NCBI GenBank assembly: GCA_030532025.1 | Contig: JAUNLY010000002.1 | Coordinates: 1 to 41,342 of the forward strand | Reading direction: 5' to 3' | Length of the DNA stretch: 41,342 nucleotides | Source: Eubacteriales bacterium | Lineage (GTDB): Bacteria; Bacillota; Clostridia; Christensenellales; Aristaeellaceae | Shown here: piece after piece, positions 25,459 through 40,462 of the stretch | How the letters are laid out: each line of letters opens with the position of its first letter | Numbering within the stretch: the stretch's first letter is position 1 | Translations under genes and position numbers: made by a program | Notes under the pieces: model-generated | What the model saw: only the letters and a program-made list of their open reading frames with translations | Database searches by the model: none | What the model was told of the DNA's origin: nothing

Positions 25459-25631
25459 AGGCAACACCGCACATTTAAGCGGTGCCGCTGGAGATGAATT
25501 TTCTGCCTGCTGTTGCCTGCAAAAAGCTTGGTTTACATTTAGGTTTAGCTTAAGTAACCATCTGCTTTTGCGGTCGCATTTAGCAAAAAATTCATCTACC
25601 GTCGCACGAGCCGATTTGTGTGGTATAGCCT
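25459..25631. repeat. MITE-like inverted-repeat element in the leader of the binding-protein gene
   Basis: Ends AGGCAACACCGCACA and TGTGTGGTATAGCCT are imperfect inverted repeats. Inside, AGATGAATTTTCTGC (25492-25506) pairs with GCAAAAAATTCATCT (25583-25597). CCTGCAAAAAGCTTGGTTTA (25516-25535) matches, in inverse, 29163-29182 with 18/20 identity, showing that these are one family. It ends about 8 bp before the ribosome-binding site of the binding-protein gene. Confidence 0.75.
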
Positions 25632-25650
25632 AAAAATTAAGGAGGAAAAC

Positions 25651-27267
25651 ATGAAGAAACTGTTGTCCCTGTTGCTCGCAGTCGGTATGCTGCTAAGCCT
25701 TTCTCTTGCTTTTGCAGAAGAAACAAAGGCTCCGGATCCCAAGTCCATTTTAGAAGGCGTAAAGCTTGAACCTTCCAAATTGCTCTATCTTGAAAAGCCG
25801 CTCGAAATTACCGGTATGGGTATACACTTTAACAACTACCCCACCGAGTACGATGGCTGCTACTATTTCCCTGCAATAGAGCAAAAAACAAATGCCAAAT
25901 TTATGATAGACTGGCGCAGCACAGACGGCTATGACACCCATGTTGCGACAACGCTGGCTTCCGGAAAATTGCCGGACATAATAGGTGCAGGAACCTATGG
26001 CGTTTTAAACCTTGCTGAAGAAGGCGCCATCGTACAGCTTGACGAATATCTGGATCTTATACCCAATATCGTAGAAGCAGTTGGCGAAGACAGAATGGCA
26101 TACTGGCGCCAAGCGGACGGTCATATTTATACAATCCCCACCATTGTAGACGTCCCCGGTGCGCACAGTGTAATGCTGCGCAAAGACTGGCTTGATAAGC
26201 TTAACATGGAAGTTCCCACCAACTGGGACGAATGGATGGCGCTCTGGCGCGGCATTCGCGATAACGACCTTAACGAAAACGGCGATGCGACAGACGAAAT
26301 ACCGTTGGCACTCGAAATGGGCGCAAGCGGCGAACGCTGCATGTCAAGCCTTATGAACGCTTTTGGCATAAGAACATCATCAGACACGCAGTTCTGCGTT
26401 TTGGACGATGGCACTTACACCATGGTTTACGAACACCCCCGTTACATGGAATTCCTTCAGACCGTACAGGATATGTACAAAGAAGGCCTTATAGACCAAG
26501 AATTCACCATGCGCAAACAGGCAGAACTTTTCACAGCCATGGATTCAGGCCTTGTAGGCACAGCCATGACTTGGGCTGAGCGTGCAAGAATTTCAACGGG
26601 CACAAACCGCGATTCGGGTGCAAAAGACGCTCTTTGGGAATGCGTAGCTCCTATAGTAGGACCGCACGGCGATCAGATAACACAAGAGCGTAACGCTGTT
26701 ACAAACGTATGGTGCATAACCTCCGCAGCTCAAGAAAAAGGCATCGTTGAAGACATTCTTAGAGTATTCAACTGGAACTTCGGCGAAGAAGGTCTTATTC
26801 TCTACAACTACGGTATAGAAGGCAAAACCTACGACATGGTTGACGGCAAATATGTACTGAAGCCCGAAATCGTAGCAAACGGCTTTGTCGATTACCGTGC
26901 AACCGGTATGGAATATGAGCCTTTCGGCGGCAAATGGTTTACAGATGCTTTCACACAGTGCTTGTTTAAGGGCCTTACAATCGACGAACTCGATGACGCT
27001 TCTCAGTCTTTCTACAATGGCTTGGCCGTTGTAAACAACGATTACTTCTATGCTATGCCACAAACCCTTGAAACCGAAGCTTACAAGGAATTCAGGGGCG
27101 AACTCATAACGGGTGCTGCCGGCGTTTGCGTACTTCGCGACCAGTGCATAGCAGGCCAGATAAGCGTTGAAGAATTCCAACAGAAATACAACGAACTTAA
27201 AGCCATGGGCTTGCAAGATGTTATAGAGCAAGGCTCCACAGCCTATGCAGAAATAATGGGCAAGTAA
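25651..27267 (+). CDS. Extracellular sugar-binding protein of the ABC importer (LplA-like)
   Basis: A 538-aa solute-binding protein delivering the sugar to the two upstream permeases. Residues 1-22 are a Sec signal peptide (MKKLLSLLLAVGMLLSLSLA) with a likely cut after AFA; there is no lipobox cysteine, the first Cys being about residue 70, so it is not an obvious lipoprotein. The mature part has the two-lobed type 1 oligosaccharide-binding pattern with a DNDLNENGDATDEIPLALE-like Ca-loop segment (about 207-225). The start at 25651 is fixed by AAGGAGG; an upstream in-frame ATG at 25618 lies in the repeat. Its ~260-nt leader contains the fold-forming repeat at 25459-25631. A strong terminator follows. 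Confidence 0.92.
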   Translation: MKKLLSLLLAVGMLLSLSLAFAEETKAPDPKSILEGVKLEPSKLLYLEKPLEITGMGIHFNNYPTEYDGCYYFPAIEQKTNAKFMIDWRSTDGYDTHVATTLASGKLPDIIGAGTYGVLNLAEEGAIVQLDEYLDLIPNIVEAVGEDRMAYWRQADGHIYTIPTIVDVPGAHSVMLRKDWLDKLNMEVPTNWDEWMALWRGIRDNDLNENGDATDEIPLALEMGASGERCMSSLMNAFGIRTSSDTQFCVLDDGTYTMVYEHPRYMEFLQTVQDMYKEGLIDQEFTMRKQAELFTAMDSGLVGTAMTWAERARISTGTNRDSGAKDALWECVAPIVGPHGDQITQERNAVTNVWCITSAAQEKGIVEDILRVFNWNFGEEGLILYNYGIEGKTYDMVDGKYVLKPEIVANGFVDYRATGMEYEPFGGKWFTDAFTQCLFKGLTIDELDDASQSFYNGLAVVNNDYFYAMPQTLETEAYKEFRGELITGAAGVCVLRDQCIAGQISVEEFQQKYNELKAMGLQDVIEQGSTAYAEIMGK

Positions 27268-35806: not shown

Positions 35807-35918
35807 TGTCTTTTCCCATTTTTGTTGCGCATTCTTCGTTCAGCACTACAAAAAAATCTGGCGTAACTCTTTGCATTAACGGTTTGGAACAGTGTAAAAA
35901 ACAATAAAAACAACTAAA

Positions 35919-35952
35919 GGCACTGTTCACTTGAGCAGTGCCTAAATTTTTA
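35919..35952. terminator. Bidirectional terminator between convergent operons
   Basis: GGCACTGTTCA (35919-35929) pairs with TGAGCAGTGCC (35932-35942); T-rich sequence follows on both strands (TTTTTA on plus, TTTAGTTGTTTTT on minus). It serves the amidohydrolase operon and the leftward telA operon. Confidence 0.85.
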
Positions 35953-36030: not shown

Positions 36031-37086
36031 CTAATCTTCTTTCAAAGGCTTTAGCAACTCCCTGTGGGTGCTGTCTTTAATTGGGCCATTTAGTTGGGAT
36101 ATTTGCATAGAGAGTTTGGAGAGTTCTTTTTCTGCGTCCAAGCGTTGCTGTTCTCCCGCCTGCTGTATTGCCTGTGCCTTTAATACGGTTTGCTTTAGCT
36201 CCTCGTTGGCACGCTCTATGGCCTGTGCTTCTGCGCCGCCTTGTTTTTTTATGTCAGAAAGGCGTTGTGCCGCCTGTTTAATATCCTGCGAGAGCTTTTT
36301 TGTTTCCTCTATGGATTTTTGCCCCGCAAGGCGAGTACGGTTTAGAACGGCATTCTGCTTGTCAAGCCCCGCCGCAAGCGCCACTTGGTTACGCCAAAGC
36401 GGTACGGTTTGGTATATAATCATCTGCAGTCTTTCGCCTATACGGCGGTTGTTTTCCTGCAAAAGCGCTATCTGTGGAGCGGTCTGCAAAGCTATTGTGC
36501 GGGATAGTTTTAAATCGTGCAGGCGTTTTTCAAAGCTGCGTATACCCGCCTCTAAATTTGAAAGGCGGCTGTCTTCTATAATATTGCCTGTTTTTTGCGT
36601 TACAGCTAATTTTGCCTGAGCTTCTGCAAGAGCCTTTTCGCCCGCTTCTATATATATTTCAAGCATTTTAAGGCGGAGCAAGTTTTCCTTGTACATTTCT
36701 TCCATTATTACATTATCTTTTAAAAGGCCTAAGCGCATTATGTCCATCTCTGATGCTAAAGAATCTATAGCAAGGTCGGCATCTTCAAAGCGTTTCAGAT
36801 AACGCTCCCTACCGCCAAAAAGCCCCGCAAAAAAGCCCTTTGGTTCTTCAAAAGCGCTTATTTCTTCTATAAGGTGTAAAAGTTCGTCTATTAGCTTGGC
36901 ACTTTCGTTAAGTGAAGTGTTTGACTCCATGCGACGAAGGAGCCTATCCGAAAGGTCTGACAGTCTTCTCTGCACACCCGCCCCAAACTGCACAGATGTC
37001 TGCACACGGCTTAGGTCAAGGCTCTTTGCTATTTCCTCTATCTGCTGCTGTTCTTCCGTGGTAAATGCGCGTTTGTTTTCTTCCAT
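36031..37086 (-). CDS. telA: TelA-family (toxic anion resistance) protein
   Basis: A 351-aa, almost wholly helical protein of the TelA/YaaN/YceH family, named for tellurite resistance although its biochemical function is unknown. Seen: an N-terminal helical part (about 1-80), FFAGLFGGRERYLKRFE (about 85-101) and long coiled-coil helices containing IYQTVPLWRNQVALAAGLDK (the most conserved TelA block, about 223-242) and Ala/Gln-rich tails. No membrane helix; presumably cytoplasmic, peripheral to the membrane. It starts 1 nt after the stop of the binding protein gene and ends the four-gene operon with xpaC, matching the xpaC-yaaN pairing of Bacillus. Confidence 0.9.
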   Translation of the reverse strand: MEENKRAFTTEEQQQIEEIAKSLDLSRVQTSVQFGAGVQRRLSDLSDRLLRRMESNTSLNESAKLIDELLHLIEEISAFEEPKGFFAGLFGGRERYLKRFEDADLAIDSLASEMDIMRLGLLKDNVIMEEMYKENLLRLKMLEIYIEAGEKALAEAQAKLAVTQKTGNIIEDSRLSNLEAGIRSFEKRLHDLKLSRTIALQTAPQIALLQENNRRIGERLQMIIYQTVPLWRNQVALAAGLDKQNAVLNRTRLAGQKSIEETKKLSQDIKQAAQRLSDIKKQGGAEAQAIERANEELKQTVLKAQAIQQAGEQQRLDAEKELSKLSMQISQLNGPIKDSTHRELLKPLKED

Positions 37087-37087
37087 A

Positions 37088-38146
37088 CTACTCCAATGCG
37101 TTTATTATATTTAGCATAACATTTGACGAGGGCATTTGGATAATGTCCTTTATGACGGGTGCCACACCATAAACCGGCAAGCTATCGGTGTTGGCACGGG
37201 CGGTATTTACCCCCGTCCTAAAGCCGTGCTTTTCCCATGCTATTTGCTGTATTTCCTCGTCCATCATGGCGGGGATTACACGGCGACCATTGTCTGTAAG
37301 CGCTATAAACACATGGCTTGACCACACGGTAGGCACCGGATAAATCATAACTACGTCGTCTTTAATCTGATTATAGTCTTGCGGGTTGGTGTTTGCAAAC
37401 TCTATAAGCTGGCTTTCGTAGCCCGCTACCAAGGGGCGCGCGCCCACGCCAAGCTTTAAAAACTGGCTGAAAAGGTCGGAGGAACTGCTCTCCGTAAACC
37501 CAAGCCTACTCGTTATTGCTTTAAGCTTAGGTATAACAGATTGCATGTTTTGTTCGGTTACGACGCTACCGCCCGCCAACATGTTAGCCAAAAGCCCCGA
37601 AAACATATTGCCGGAGTTTGACTTTGATGGGTTTGTCGTGTGCACTACAACGGTATCGTACAAATCGACACCTATATCACGCCATTTGGTGCTGTTTTCA
37701 AGCACGGGGAGAAACTTTGCCATATCCATATAATATATGCCGTTATCTTGCTTAACATAGCCGGAATTTATAAGGCTGTCCGCAACCGCTTTACGGCTAT
37801 ATATAACTATGGGGGTGTTGAATATAATTTCGTTTTGCTTAGGCTTGCCGTAAGTTTTTTCGTATAAATCCAAAGCTGTTTGGCTGGACGGCCACAGGTA
37901 GTCTTGCTCCGTATGGTTCGCCCTTATCATATCATAGGAGCCGGCCTTTTGGTAGTCAAAATCCATGGCGTATTTTTTGTTCAGTATTTTCTTTACCTGC
38001 TCGTCTTCGATAAGGCCTATTTTTTCGCCACCTATATATCCCTTTATCTGCACATGGGGAGCTTGGTTGTTTTTAAAAACGCCGTATACGCCAGAAGCAA
38101 CTATGACAAGCAAAAGCAATATAAGCCCTTTATGTTTTGATTTCAT
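37088..38146 (-). CDS. Membrane-anchored solute-binding-protein-like component
   Basis: A 352-aa protein with a single N-terminal membrane anchor (about 6-24, GLILLLLVIVASGVYGVF), no lipobox, and a large outer domain resembling a type 2 periplasmic-binding fold. It is paralogous to the binding part of the VWA protein in this operon: LWPSSQTALDLYEK and FNTPIVIYSRKAVADSL mirror VWPASSMW and STTPVVFGIRKSLAEKL there. No transporter permease is nearby, so a sensor or adaptor role is more likely than uptake. The start at 38146 follows GGAGGG; a longer reading to 38179 overlaps xpaC. Translationally coupled to xpaC (4-nt gap) and to telA (1-nt gap). Confidence 0.82.
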   Translation of the reverse strand: MKSKHKGLILLLLVIVASGVYGVFKNNQAPHVQIKGYIGGEKIGLIEDEQVKKILNKKYAMDFDYQKAGSYDMIRANHTEQDYLWPSSQTALDLYEKTYGKPKQNEIIFNTPIVIYSRKAVADSLINSGYVKQDNGIYYMDMAKFLPVLENSTKWRDIGVDLYDTVVVHTTNPSKSNSGNMFSGLLANMLAGGSVVTEQNMQSVIPKLKAITSRLGFTESSSSDLFSQFLKLGVGARPLVAGYESQLIEFANTNPQDYNQIKDDVVMIYPVPTVWSSHVFIALTDNGRRVIPAMMDEEIQQIAWEKHGFRTGVNTARANTDSLPVYGVAPVIKDIIQMPSSNVMLNIINALE

Positions 38147-38150
38147 AGTT

Positions 38151-38753
38151 TTAGCCCTCCAAATGCAGCGTTTCTTCAAGCGTTTTTATGTCCGCCTCCA
38201 CGTCCAACACTTCGTTTTGAACAAGCCTTCCAAACTGCTTTGTAAAGGCTTCGTACAAAATATCCATCGCGCGGGAGGTTTCTTTTGACAATCTATCTAT
38301 TTGTTCACCCGTGGGGCTGCCTATCTCTATCTTTCTGTATTTTTTAAGTATATTTGCACCCGTGTCAAGGTAATATGTAAAAAAGCGCCTCGCCTGCGGT
38401 ATCCTGTCAGGATTATTGTTTAAAAACGCAAGTATGCGACTGCCCAATTCGTGCAAGTTCTCCGCCTTTTGTTTTATTTCTATACTGTTTAATGTTTGAG
38501 AGCAATTATATATTGCCTGCATATCCTCGTTCGCTTCAACCATCATGCGGTGCATATTTTCGCCGCCCTTTAGGTTTTCCACATTTACCTTGCCTATTTT
38601 AAGAGCAGGTTTAAGCAAAAGATACACCGCAAAGTACAGCACGACGGCGATTACGCCCGCTACTATAGGGTTCCAGACCAACATGTTTTTTAACACAAAA
38701 TATACCGCTAAAGACACAACTGCCGAAACGCCGGTGCGCAAATTTTCTTTCAT
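38151..38753 (-). CDS. xpaC: XpaC-like membrane protein
   Basis: A 200-aa protein with two N-terminal membrane helices (about 7-24 and 30-48) and a cytoplasmic helical domain, matching the XpaC family (named after a Bacillus locus affecting hydrolysis of a phosphatase substrate; real role unknown). XpaC and TelA proteins are repeatedly linked in stress-response (Ter-like) gene contexts, which the neighbour telA supports. AAGGGGG precedes the ATG. With both tails inside, it is the likely link between the two outer binding domains of this operon and cytoplasmic TelA; that wiring is inference. Confidence 0.85.
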   Translation of the reverse strand: MKENLRTGVSAVVSLAVYFVLKNMLVWNPIVAGVIAVVLYFAVYLLLKPALKIGKVNVENLKGGENMHRMMVEANEDMQAIYNCSQTLNSIEIKQKAENLHELGSRILAFLNNNPDRIPQARRFFTYYLDTGANILKKYRKIEIGSPTGEQIDRLSKETSRAMDILYEAFTKQFGRLVQNEVLDVEADIKTLEETLHLEG

Positions 38754-38776
38754 TGTTTTCCCCCTTTTAATAAAAA

Positions 38777-40462
38777 TCAGTTATAACCCTTTGCCTTTCG
38801 GAAAGCCTCTATTAAATCTCTGCTGCCGTCAAACACCCTTGCGTGTGTAAGCTCCGCTATAAGCCCAAGCTCCTCTTTGTCGGCCTTGCCGAAAGATATA
38901 CAAAACACCGGTATATCCTGACCGTTTTTTTGGTAATAGCTTTCAAAATCCTTGTAATCCTTTTCGCCGTTGGCCTTGCCATCTGTCATAAGTATTACAG
39001 CGGGGTTGTAGCGGCTTAAATTAACATCGCTCATATGGGAAAAAGCCTTTTCAAGCCCCTCGTACATGGCGGTACCGCCGAATGCATCATGTTCTTTTAT
39101 GGCGGAGTAAAGGTTTTCTATATCTACATTGCCCTTTGCAGTTTCTATGTTTTTTATAGACGTGCCAAACAGTATAACCGTGTTTATTTCGTCCGACGAA
39201 GCCTGCAAGAGGTTTTTTGCAGCCCTATCCTGTAAAAGTATTTCTTCCATCGCCATACGCAATTCTTCTATGGGTCTTCCGTCCATGGAGCCGGAATAAT
39301 CAAGCACATATACGGTATAAGAGGGCTTTCTAAAATTTGTCTGGTAGAGGTTTAGAGCCTTTATTATAGTACCCGCCTCAGGCATTCTTATGGGCGTTAT
39401 TATAAGCTCCGTATCCGCTCCCCAATCTTTATTCCATACCTGTTTATGCTCCTGCGCTATTCCTATATAGCCTGTACGTCTGCCGTAAGCTTGTATCTCT
39501 TTTTGGACATCATGGGACATTATAAATTCTTTGAGCTTTAAAAACAGCTCTTCTTTTTGTTTATCCCCTTGGTTTACATAGCCCAATGGAGCGTCAGATA
39601 TTGACAAGCCGTCGTAAGGGTACACTATGTATAAAGGCTCTCTGCCCTGCTTTATAAGCTCTTTATTAGTTGTCAATATCAAGGATTCGTAGTTTACCAT
39701 GGCATCAAAATTCCCGTTTAAGAACAGGGTTTTAAGCCATTCGGAAGAACCCGATGAACGGTCCACACCCAAAAGCAACGCCCTTATATCCTCCGCAAGC
39801 TTTGGTGATTTAAGCATATCTTCCGTAATCATATCGGGTGAATCTAAAAGCGCATAGAGGAAACCCATATACGCAGAACAGCCGGAGTTTGATTGCGTTG
39901 CGCTAGTCATGCAGAATTTAAGCTCCCCTGACTGTATTTTTTTAAGTATGTCGCGCACGGAAACTTGACCCTCTGTAAAACCCAGTTTTTCTGCGAGCGA
40001 TTTTCTTATGCCAAACACAACCGGTGTCGTAGAAACGGATTCTGCATATTTTACCTTGTGGTTTTTATCCCCCATTGTAATCCACATGCTTGACGCCGGC
40101 CAAACGGCATCGTAGGGAACATGGTCTAACATAAGGCTCCTTGCTATATCTATACTGCCTTGGTATACCATGTTGAGCGAGACCTTGTTTTCTTTTGCAA
40201 AACGCTCAAGTATAGGCTCCAGCTCTTTGTTTTCGGAACCCGATACAATGGTAAGCTCGTTTTTCCAACGAGGGTCGCTTAGCTTGTATTCGCTTGCGCT
40301 TTGCGGCAGCTTAAGTGTTTCTTTAATACTTTCTTTAGTTTTATCTTTACTAAACAATCCCACTATAAGAAATGCTATTATTATGACCAACAGGTTTAAA
40401 ATGCAACCGAGCTTCCTTTTACCCGCCCTTTTGCCAGATTTTTGCATATTATTTCCGCTCAT
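38777..40462 (-). CDS. Membrane-anchored fusion of a solute-binding domain and a VWA domain
   Basis: A 561-aa protein. Order: short basic cytoplasmic N terminus, one membrane helix (about 18-38), an outer binding-protein-like domain (about 60-355, with VWPASSMW and NSGCSAYMGFLYALL), then a von Willebrand A domain (about 383-555) with an intact MIDAS: DYSGSMDG, GGTAMYEG and LMTDGKANG. VWA domains bind protein partners through the metal. The start at 40462 follows GGGGGAGGA; a GTG at 40477 is less likely. The binding domain is paralogous to the protein at 37088. First gene of the VWA-xpaC-binding protein-telA operon; it resembles bacterial VWA/extracellular-binding fusions of unknown function. 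Confidence 0.85.
   Translation of the reverse strand: MSGNNMQKSGKRAGKRKLGCILNLLVIIIAFLIVGLFSKDKTKESIKETLKLPQSASEYKLSDPRWKNELTIVSGSENKELEPILERFAKENKVSLNMVYQGSIDIARSLMLDHVPYDAVWPASSMWITMGDKNHKVKYAESVSTTPVVFGIRKSLAEKLGFTEGQVSVRDILKKIQSGELKFCMTSATQSNSGCSAYMGFLYALLDSPDMITEDMLKSPKLAEDIRALLLGVDRSSGSSEWLKTLFLNGNFDAMVNYESLILTTNKELIKQGREPLYIVYPYDGLSISDAPLGYVNQGDKQKEELFLKLKEFIMSHDVQKEIQAYGRRTGYIGIAQEHKQVWNKDWGADTELIITPIRMPEAGTIIKALNLYQTNFRKPSYTVYVLDYSGSMDGRPIEELRMAMEEILLQDRAAKNLLQASSDEINTVILFGTSIKNIETAKGNVDIENLYSAIKEHDAFGGTAMYEGLEKAFSHMSDVNLSRYNPAVILMTDGKANGEKDYKDFESYYQKNGQDIPVFCISFGKADKEELGLIAELTHARVFDGSRDLIEAFRKAKGYN

Follow-up and report, generated by a model that had tools for sequence, protein, structure and literature searches.

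What does a cell do with two solute-binding domains at its outer face when the genes around them supply no transporter? The question is raised by a four-gene operon on a 41,342-nt stretch of DNA (the window), a draft-genome contig of an Eubacteriales bacterium of the Aristaeellaceae (JAUNLY010000002.1; GCA_030532025.1). The operon runs leftward on the minus strand from 40462 to 36031, with gaps of 23, 4, and 1 nt, and encodes in order a solute-binding protein (SBP) fused to a von Willebrand factor A (VWA) domain (SBP–VWA), XpaC, a second solute-binding protein (SBP2), and TelA (Table 1). An earlier note, made from the sequence alone, had described this operon and proposed that its outer domains report through XpaC to TelA; all four open reading frames (ORFs) are present, and Pfam matches, folds, and gene order agree with that description. 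Here, we put at about even chances the reading that the operon encodes an extracytoplasmic ligand sensor, lacking a transporter, that acts on XpaC/TelA as its envelope-stress effector. The basis for this reading is the gene content, the folds, an intact metal ion-dependent adhesion site (MIDAS), the predicted anchors, co-conservation in Clostridia, and related sets in three other phyla.

Gene products and predicted folds

The SBP–VWA ORF (561 aa) starts at the ATG at 40462 and is preceded by a Shine–Dalgarno-like GGGGGAGGA. In Pfam, residues 73–328 match SBP_bac_11 (PF13531; E=3.4e-15), and residues 384–542 match VWA (E=6.7e-11). XpaC matched PF10112 well above the gathering score (E=8.7e-21; 75 bits versus 29.8), as did TelA with PF05816 over residues 16–330 (E=1.8e-49; 169 bits versus a 30-bit cut-off). 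Pfam, NCBIfam, and PDB sequence searches returned no significant match for SBP2, and structure was therefore needed to identify it. An AlphaFold2 (AF2) model of SBP2 from an alignment of 40 homologues (predicted local distance difference test score [pLDDT], 91.9; predicted template modeling score [pTM], 0.85) had the sulfate-binding protein 1sbp as its top PDB match in Foldseek (E=1.1e-10; template modeling [TM] score, 0.55–0.62), followed by hexose-phosphate, ferric, and molybdate binding proteins. The SBP–VWA model (pLDDT 90; pTM 0.84) matched type II SBPs, among them 6lkg (HptA), and separately the VWA domain of inter-alpha-inhibitor (ITI) heavy chains. Both outer domains are thus type II solute-binding folds, and the earlier note withstands its own condition for refutation, namely structural models in which the outer domains are something else. 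The predicted paralogy of SBP2 with the outer domain of the fusion was likewise recovered (hhalign P=98.2, E=3e-14).

Both paralogues keep SNSG and Tyr–Glu motifs of the cleft type. Residue S103 of SBP–VWA aligns with a ModA serine, in a weak sequence match (E=0.005) whose other correspondence is motif-based; we take this serine to be a ligand residue of ModA. A small anion or phosphoryl-type compound is a plausible ligand of the outer domains. In the VWA domain, the MIDAS residues D388-x-S390-x-S392, T464, and D494 were invariant across 39 aligned homologues, as expected from the intact site noted earlier.

Table 1. Features of the operon and its downstream flank in the window
Feature	Coordinates	Strand	Basis
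SBP–VWA fusion: signal-anchor helix, solute-binding domain, VWA domain	38777..40462	-	Pfam, AF2, Foldseek
Hydrophobic anchor of SBP–VWA, residues 13–42	40337..40426	-	Hydropathy scan; helix 16–37 in AF2 model
Solute-binding domain of SBP–VWA, residues 73–328	39479..40246	-	Pfam; S103, N192-S193-G194, Y258 conserved
VWA domain of SBP–VWA, residues 384–542	38837..39313	-	Pfam VWA
MIDAS core DYSGS, residues 388–392	39287..39301	-	Sequence and homologue alignment
XpaC (PF10112), 200 aa: two N-terminal helices, very short loop, helical cytoplasmic domain	38151..38753	-	Pfam, hydropathy
SBP2, 352 aa: one helix and type II solute-binding fold, without Pfam family	37088..38146	-	hhalign, AF2, Foldseek
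SBP2 anchor helix, residues 5–27	38066..38134	-	AF2 model and hydropathy
TelA (PF05816), 351 aa, without membrane segment, fast-evolving copy	36031..37086	-	Pfam, tree, hydropathy
Hairpin, 11-bp stem and T-rich tail	35918..35943		Consensus match only

Conservation in Clostridia

A scan of a genome collection returned 318 relatives, of which 80 were kept; these are Christensenellaceae-like, Lachnospiraceae- and Oscillospiraceae-type, and other Clostridia, mostly from gut or digester. Together with loci from whole-genome searches, they gave 89 Clostridia loci with the full fusion. XpaC was adjacent to the fusion in 88 loci, SBP2 came after XpaC in 86, and TelA was next in 55; a further locus (L088) has TelA without a recognized SBP2. 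When 291 genomes were drawn evenly from the class, five proved to carry a full-length fusion, and each of these had XpaC next to it (5/5). The neighborhood survey thus bears out the expected co-conservation of the binding/VWA gene with xpaC. Since the window belongs to a draft assembly, we considered a chance neighborhood or an assembly artefact, to which we give practically no weight. Conservation excludes chance: the order SBP–VWA, XpaC, SBP2 on one strand recurs in 86/89 loci, holds wherever all three genes occur, and continues into TelA in 55 loci. Dozens of independent genomes share the arrangement, isolates and complete chromosomes among them. Of the three incomplete loci, two were cut by contig ends. 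One locus (L155; G706:C4:45223-49217) carries tandem SBP–VWA/XpaC duplicates, with the second SBP–VWA copy split across two frames.

Ordinary import, of the ATP-binding cassette (ABC) or tripartite ATP-independent periplasmic (TRAP) type, through a permease encoded elsewhere would fit the general knowledge that SBP domains normally serve transporters and that orphan SBPs exist. We consider it highly improbable. The operon itself contains no permease or ATPase, and no further sense-strand gene family was common to more than about 15 of 83 neighborhoods, so that no permease is co-conserved; instead, the SBP has VWA as its fusion partner and XpaC as its neighbor. (ORF families on the antisense strand or in alternative frames also emerged from this clustering and were judged to be shadows that the four genes cast where GC content is high.) The earlier note's statement that no permease or ATPase accompanies the operon is borne out. 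The four genes also include no histidine kinase.

By median identity to the window proteins (55% for SBP–VWA, 52% for SBP2, 39% for XpaC, and 32% for TelA), the outer domains are more conserved than their inner partners; the DxSGS motif was found in 86/89 loci. This pattern bears on a membrane or wall scaffold, in which the SBP folds would be repurposed as structural or glycan-binding modules, the MIDAS VWA would contact the wall or a protein partner, and XpaC/TelA would form a sub-membrane assembly. TelA has been proposed to build sub-membrane structures (PMC7824862), VWA proteins occur in a predicted membrane-remodeling system with FtsZ-like 1 (PMC2875224), and the Lactococcus lactis XpaC is annotated for cell morphology (PMC3139573). 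However, it is in the outer SBP domains, with their SNSG and Y-E motifs, that conservation is highest, a pattern closer to ligand recognition, and a scaffold strikes us as unlikely.

The paralogous outer proteins differ in how they are held at the membrane. Hydropathy scans found a single hydrophobic segment near the N terminus of each of SBP–VWA and SBP2, two segments in XpaC, and none in TelA. A lipobox-like motif was present in 66/89 SBP–VWA proteins, with a relaxed motif in most of the others looked at, versus only 2 SBP2 proteins. The fusion is thus predicted to be usually a lipoprotein; the single-helix anchor ascribed to it earlier holds in the window but not for most homologues. This difference suggests that SBP2 is the conserved helix-anchored outer partner, whose helix is the likelier transmembrane link to XpaC. 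It also bears on surface sequestration, in which both binding proteins would capture a toxic anion or antimicrobial and XpaC/TelA would handle the damage separately, with no signal. Although TelA is historically linked to toxic anions and nisin and the outer domains have anion-type SBP folds, two low-capacity tethered SBPs would make a poor sink, and strict co-operonic pairing with XpaC together with differently anchored paralogous SBPs suggests a complex rather than bulk binding. We therefore judge sequestration to be improbable.

TelA follows a pattern of its own. In 24 genomes without adjacent TelA that we tested, canonical TelA was encoded elsewhere in 22. These trans-encoded TelAs grouped with TelAs of canonical xpaC–telA pairs, apart from the SBP-linked TelAs, which were largely separate from the canonical ones; the window TelA formed a long branch. 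The tree was a quick one with several long branches, and its exact topology is uncertain. Among the 291 evenly drawn genomes, XpaC was found in 59, TelA in 69, and adjacent pairs in 48. Given that 47/51 adjacent pairs lacked an SBP–VWA gene but 5/5 fusions had XpaC, the general and more common form is the plain XpaC–TelA pair. The operon is a specialized derivative that adds SBP–VWA and places SBP2 between XpaC and TelA, and it depends more on XpaC than on TelA. The window's own genome carries both versions; its canonical pair (L020; G000:C63:6573-9854) is followed by a gene for a 420-aa alkaline-phosphatase-superfamily-like protein, as judged by eye.

Related sets in other phyla and other genes in the window

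A tblastn search of plasmid records with SBP2 gave matches in Sphaerotilus, Variovorax, Nonomuraea, Deinococcus, and Streptomyces; phage records searched with SBP2 gave no match. The set in Sphaerotilus, Variovorax, and Nonomuraea runs SBP2, TelA, SBP–VWA, and then a helical protein of ∼210 aa that bears a membrane segment at its N terminus, so that the order in Pseudomonadota and Actinomycetota is the Clostridia order with two gene pairs swapped. Deinococcus has SBP2, SBP–VWA, and the helical protein, with no adjacent TelA. We do not claim the ∼210-aa protein as a member of the XpaC family (hhalign P=18). A more distant, two-gene version occurs in other Clostridia (L101–L109), where a two-helix protein of 246–279 aa that belongs to no Pfam family adjoins a ∼565-aa SBP–VWA fusion, with neither TelA nor SBP2 beside it. 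The 246-aa protein of this type has no detectable relation to XpaC (hhalign P=2) and is not detectably like the ∼210-aa protein. The wider SBP–VWA class thus also occurs without XpaC/TelA.

Two further contexts were seen. On a Thiodictyon plasmid (L171:3536-7567), an SBP–VWA gene precedes genes for another SBP_bac_11 protein and for a protein of 224 aa; the set looks like an SBP pair without a transporter in which the third partner differs. The swapped Variovorax set (L167:2512-4907) lies near flotillin, OB-fold, and Wadjet JetA-family genes, a possible island or defense context.

In the window itself, the strong hairpin lies ∼90–110 nt beyond telA and is likely the operon terminator, shared with the converging gene. 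Promoter-like sites numbered 14 versus a shuffled mean of 9.7 (sd 3.5), not clearly above expectation, and PADLOC anti-phage models gave no match. Elsewhere, the window carries six clustered tRNA genes on the plus strand (324-859), a FloA flotillin-like gene ∼33 kb from the operon (1568-2590), and a 549-aa ORF (25618-27267) to which Pfam assigned no family at E<=1e-4. This ORF lies downstream of a gene for a binding-protein-dependent permease and possibly encodes the binding protein of the adjacent transporter.

A proposed sensing module and its relation to known systems

In the sensing model, we infer complex formation, the direction of signaling, the class of ligand, the output, and the role of the VWA domain. 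SBP–VWA and helix-anchored SBP2 would both stand at the outer face of the membrane, where ligand would close one or both Venus-flytrap domains and the VWA MIDAS would possibly engage a partner in a metal-dependent way. Closing would alter the packing of the SBP2 helix against the XpaC two-helix hairpin; XpaC would relay the change to its own cytoplasmic helical domain and then, where present, to soluble TelA, which would act at the membrane. For the many gut and soil bacteria that carry it, the set may be a means of detecting an external cue and bracing the membrane. We also suggest, more tentatively and as a doubtful extension, that the related sets form a previously undescribed multi-phylum class of transmembrane signaling or gating complexes. 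Such a complex would use two Venus-flytrap proteins, one a VWA-bearing lipoprotein and the other helix-anchored, to control a two-helix XpaC-type protein and TelA without a kinase, transporter, or sigma factor.

Several observations weigh against the sensing model. Roughly 25 loci have room for TelA, yet none is adjacent, and one complete genome (G303; one contig, 99% complete) has the module and no TelA anywhere, so TelA is not a required receiver. XpaC is nearly without an extracellular loop, and any coupling to the outer domains would therefore have to run via membrane helices. The candidate relay partner also varies rather than being a single conserved protein: other phyla have one that is only weakly XpaC-like (P=18), and the two-gene version has an unrelated one (P=2). 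Finally, the ModA match (E=0.005) is weak and does not establish the ligand. Of the linkage to xpaC–telA drawn by the earlier note, the XpaC half is retained (88/89 loci), and the TelA half is not obligatory (55/89). Its proposed route from the outer domains through XpaC to TelA is modified as well, the SBP2 helix being a better candidate for the transmembrane link than the fusion.

TelA and XpaC form a poorly understood pair with links to tellurite, nisin, and envelope stress. The module provides two conserved soluble ligand-binding handles genetically tied to XpaC/TelA, and the ligands of its outer domains could be the first chemical input to this machine. With related sets in Clostridia, Betaproteobacteria, actinomycetes, and Deinococcus, the idea is testable in tractable laboratory strains.

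We found no published description of the set in an open library that included neither the 2012 survey of Ter/TelA systems nor the paper on Listeria telA; this accords with the earlier view that it is not a recognized system. The name "substrate-binding and VWA domain-containing protein" is used by NCBI in Variovorax and Streptomyces for the same two-domain architecture, as a name only, with no function or system described; the Variovorax copy so named is a member of the swapped TelA set. Other SBP–VWA copies (L170, L172, and the Clostridium-type L101–L109) have no TelA or SBP2 beside them, unlike the window operon. Membrane-associated VWA proteins with an intact MIDAS also occur in the conserved FtsZ-like 1/VWA operons, with a PBP-like neighbor in one species; however, those operons are defined by FtsZl1, absent from the window operon, and XpaC/TelA are not mentioned (PMC2875224). 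The Ter/TelA stress systems (Anantharaman, Iyer, and Aravind 2012), as summarized in PMC7824862, likewise combine TelA and VWA in a membrane-linked stress system, but that summary places the Ter VWA (TerF) beneath the membrane, and an outer SBP–VWA was not seen in the texts consulted.

Closer in gene content are the XpaC/TelA pairs of envelope-stress regulons, which have mild nisin and tellurite phenotypes (PMC3498285, PMC3139573, PMC12791056). The Bacillus subtilis xpaC–yaaN (telA) operon lies within the sigma-W regulon (PMC3498285), L. lactis llmg_1115–telA1 responds to membrane-protein overproduction in a CesSR study (PMC3139573), and Listeria lmo1966–1967 is connected with LiaSR and nisin susceptibility (PMC12791056). 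These pairs share the families, the adjacency, and the envelope-stress context of the operon but come without binding or VWA genes. For the outer half, the HptA match offers a possible precedent, by analogy, for an SBP as sensor: HptA senses glucose-6-phosphate through the kinase HptS and does not import it (PMC8534201). Like the operon, HptA–HptS–HptR of Staphylococcus aureus uses a type II SBP as a sensor through a membrane partner; unlike the operon, that partner is a histidine kinase, and there is no VWA, second SBP, or XpaC/TelA. In BvgS/EvgS, two SBP-type domains also sense outside the membrane (PMC8534201), but there the domains lie in tandem in one polypeptide fused to a kinase.

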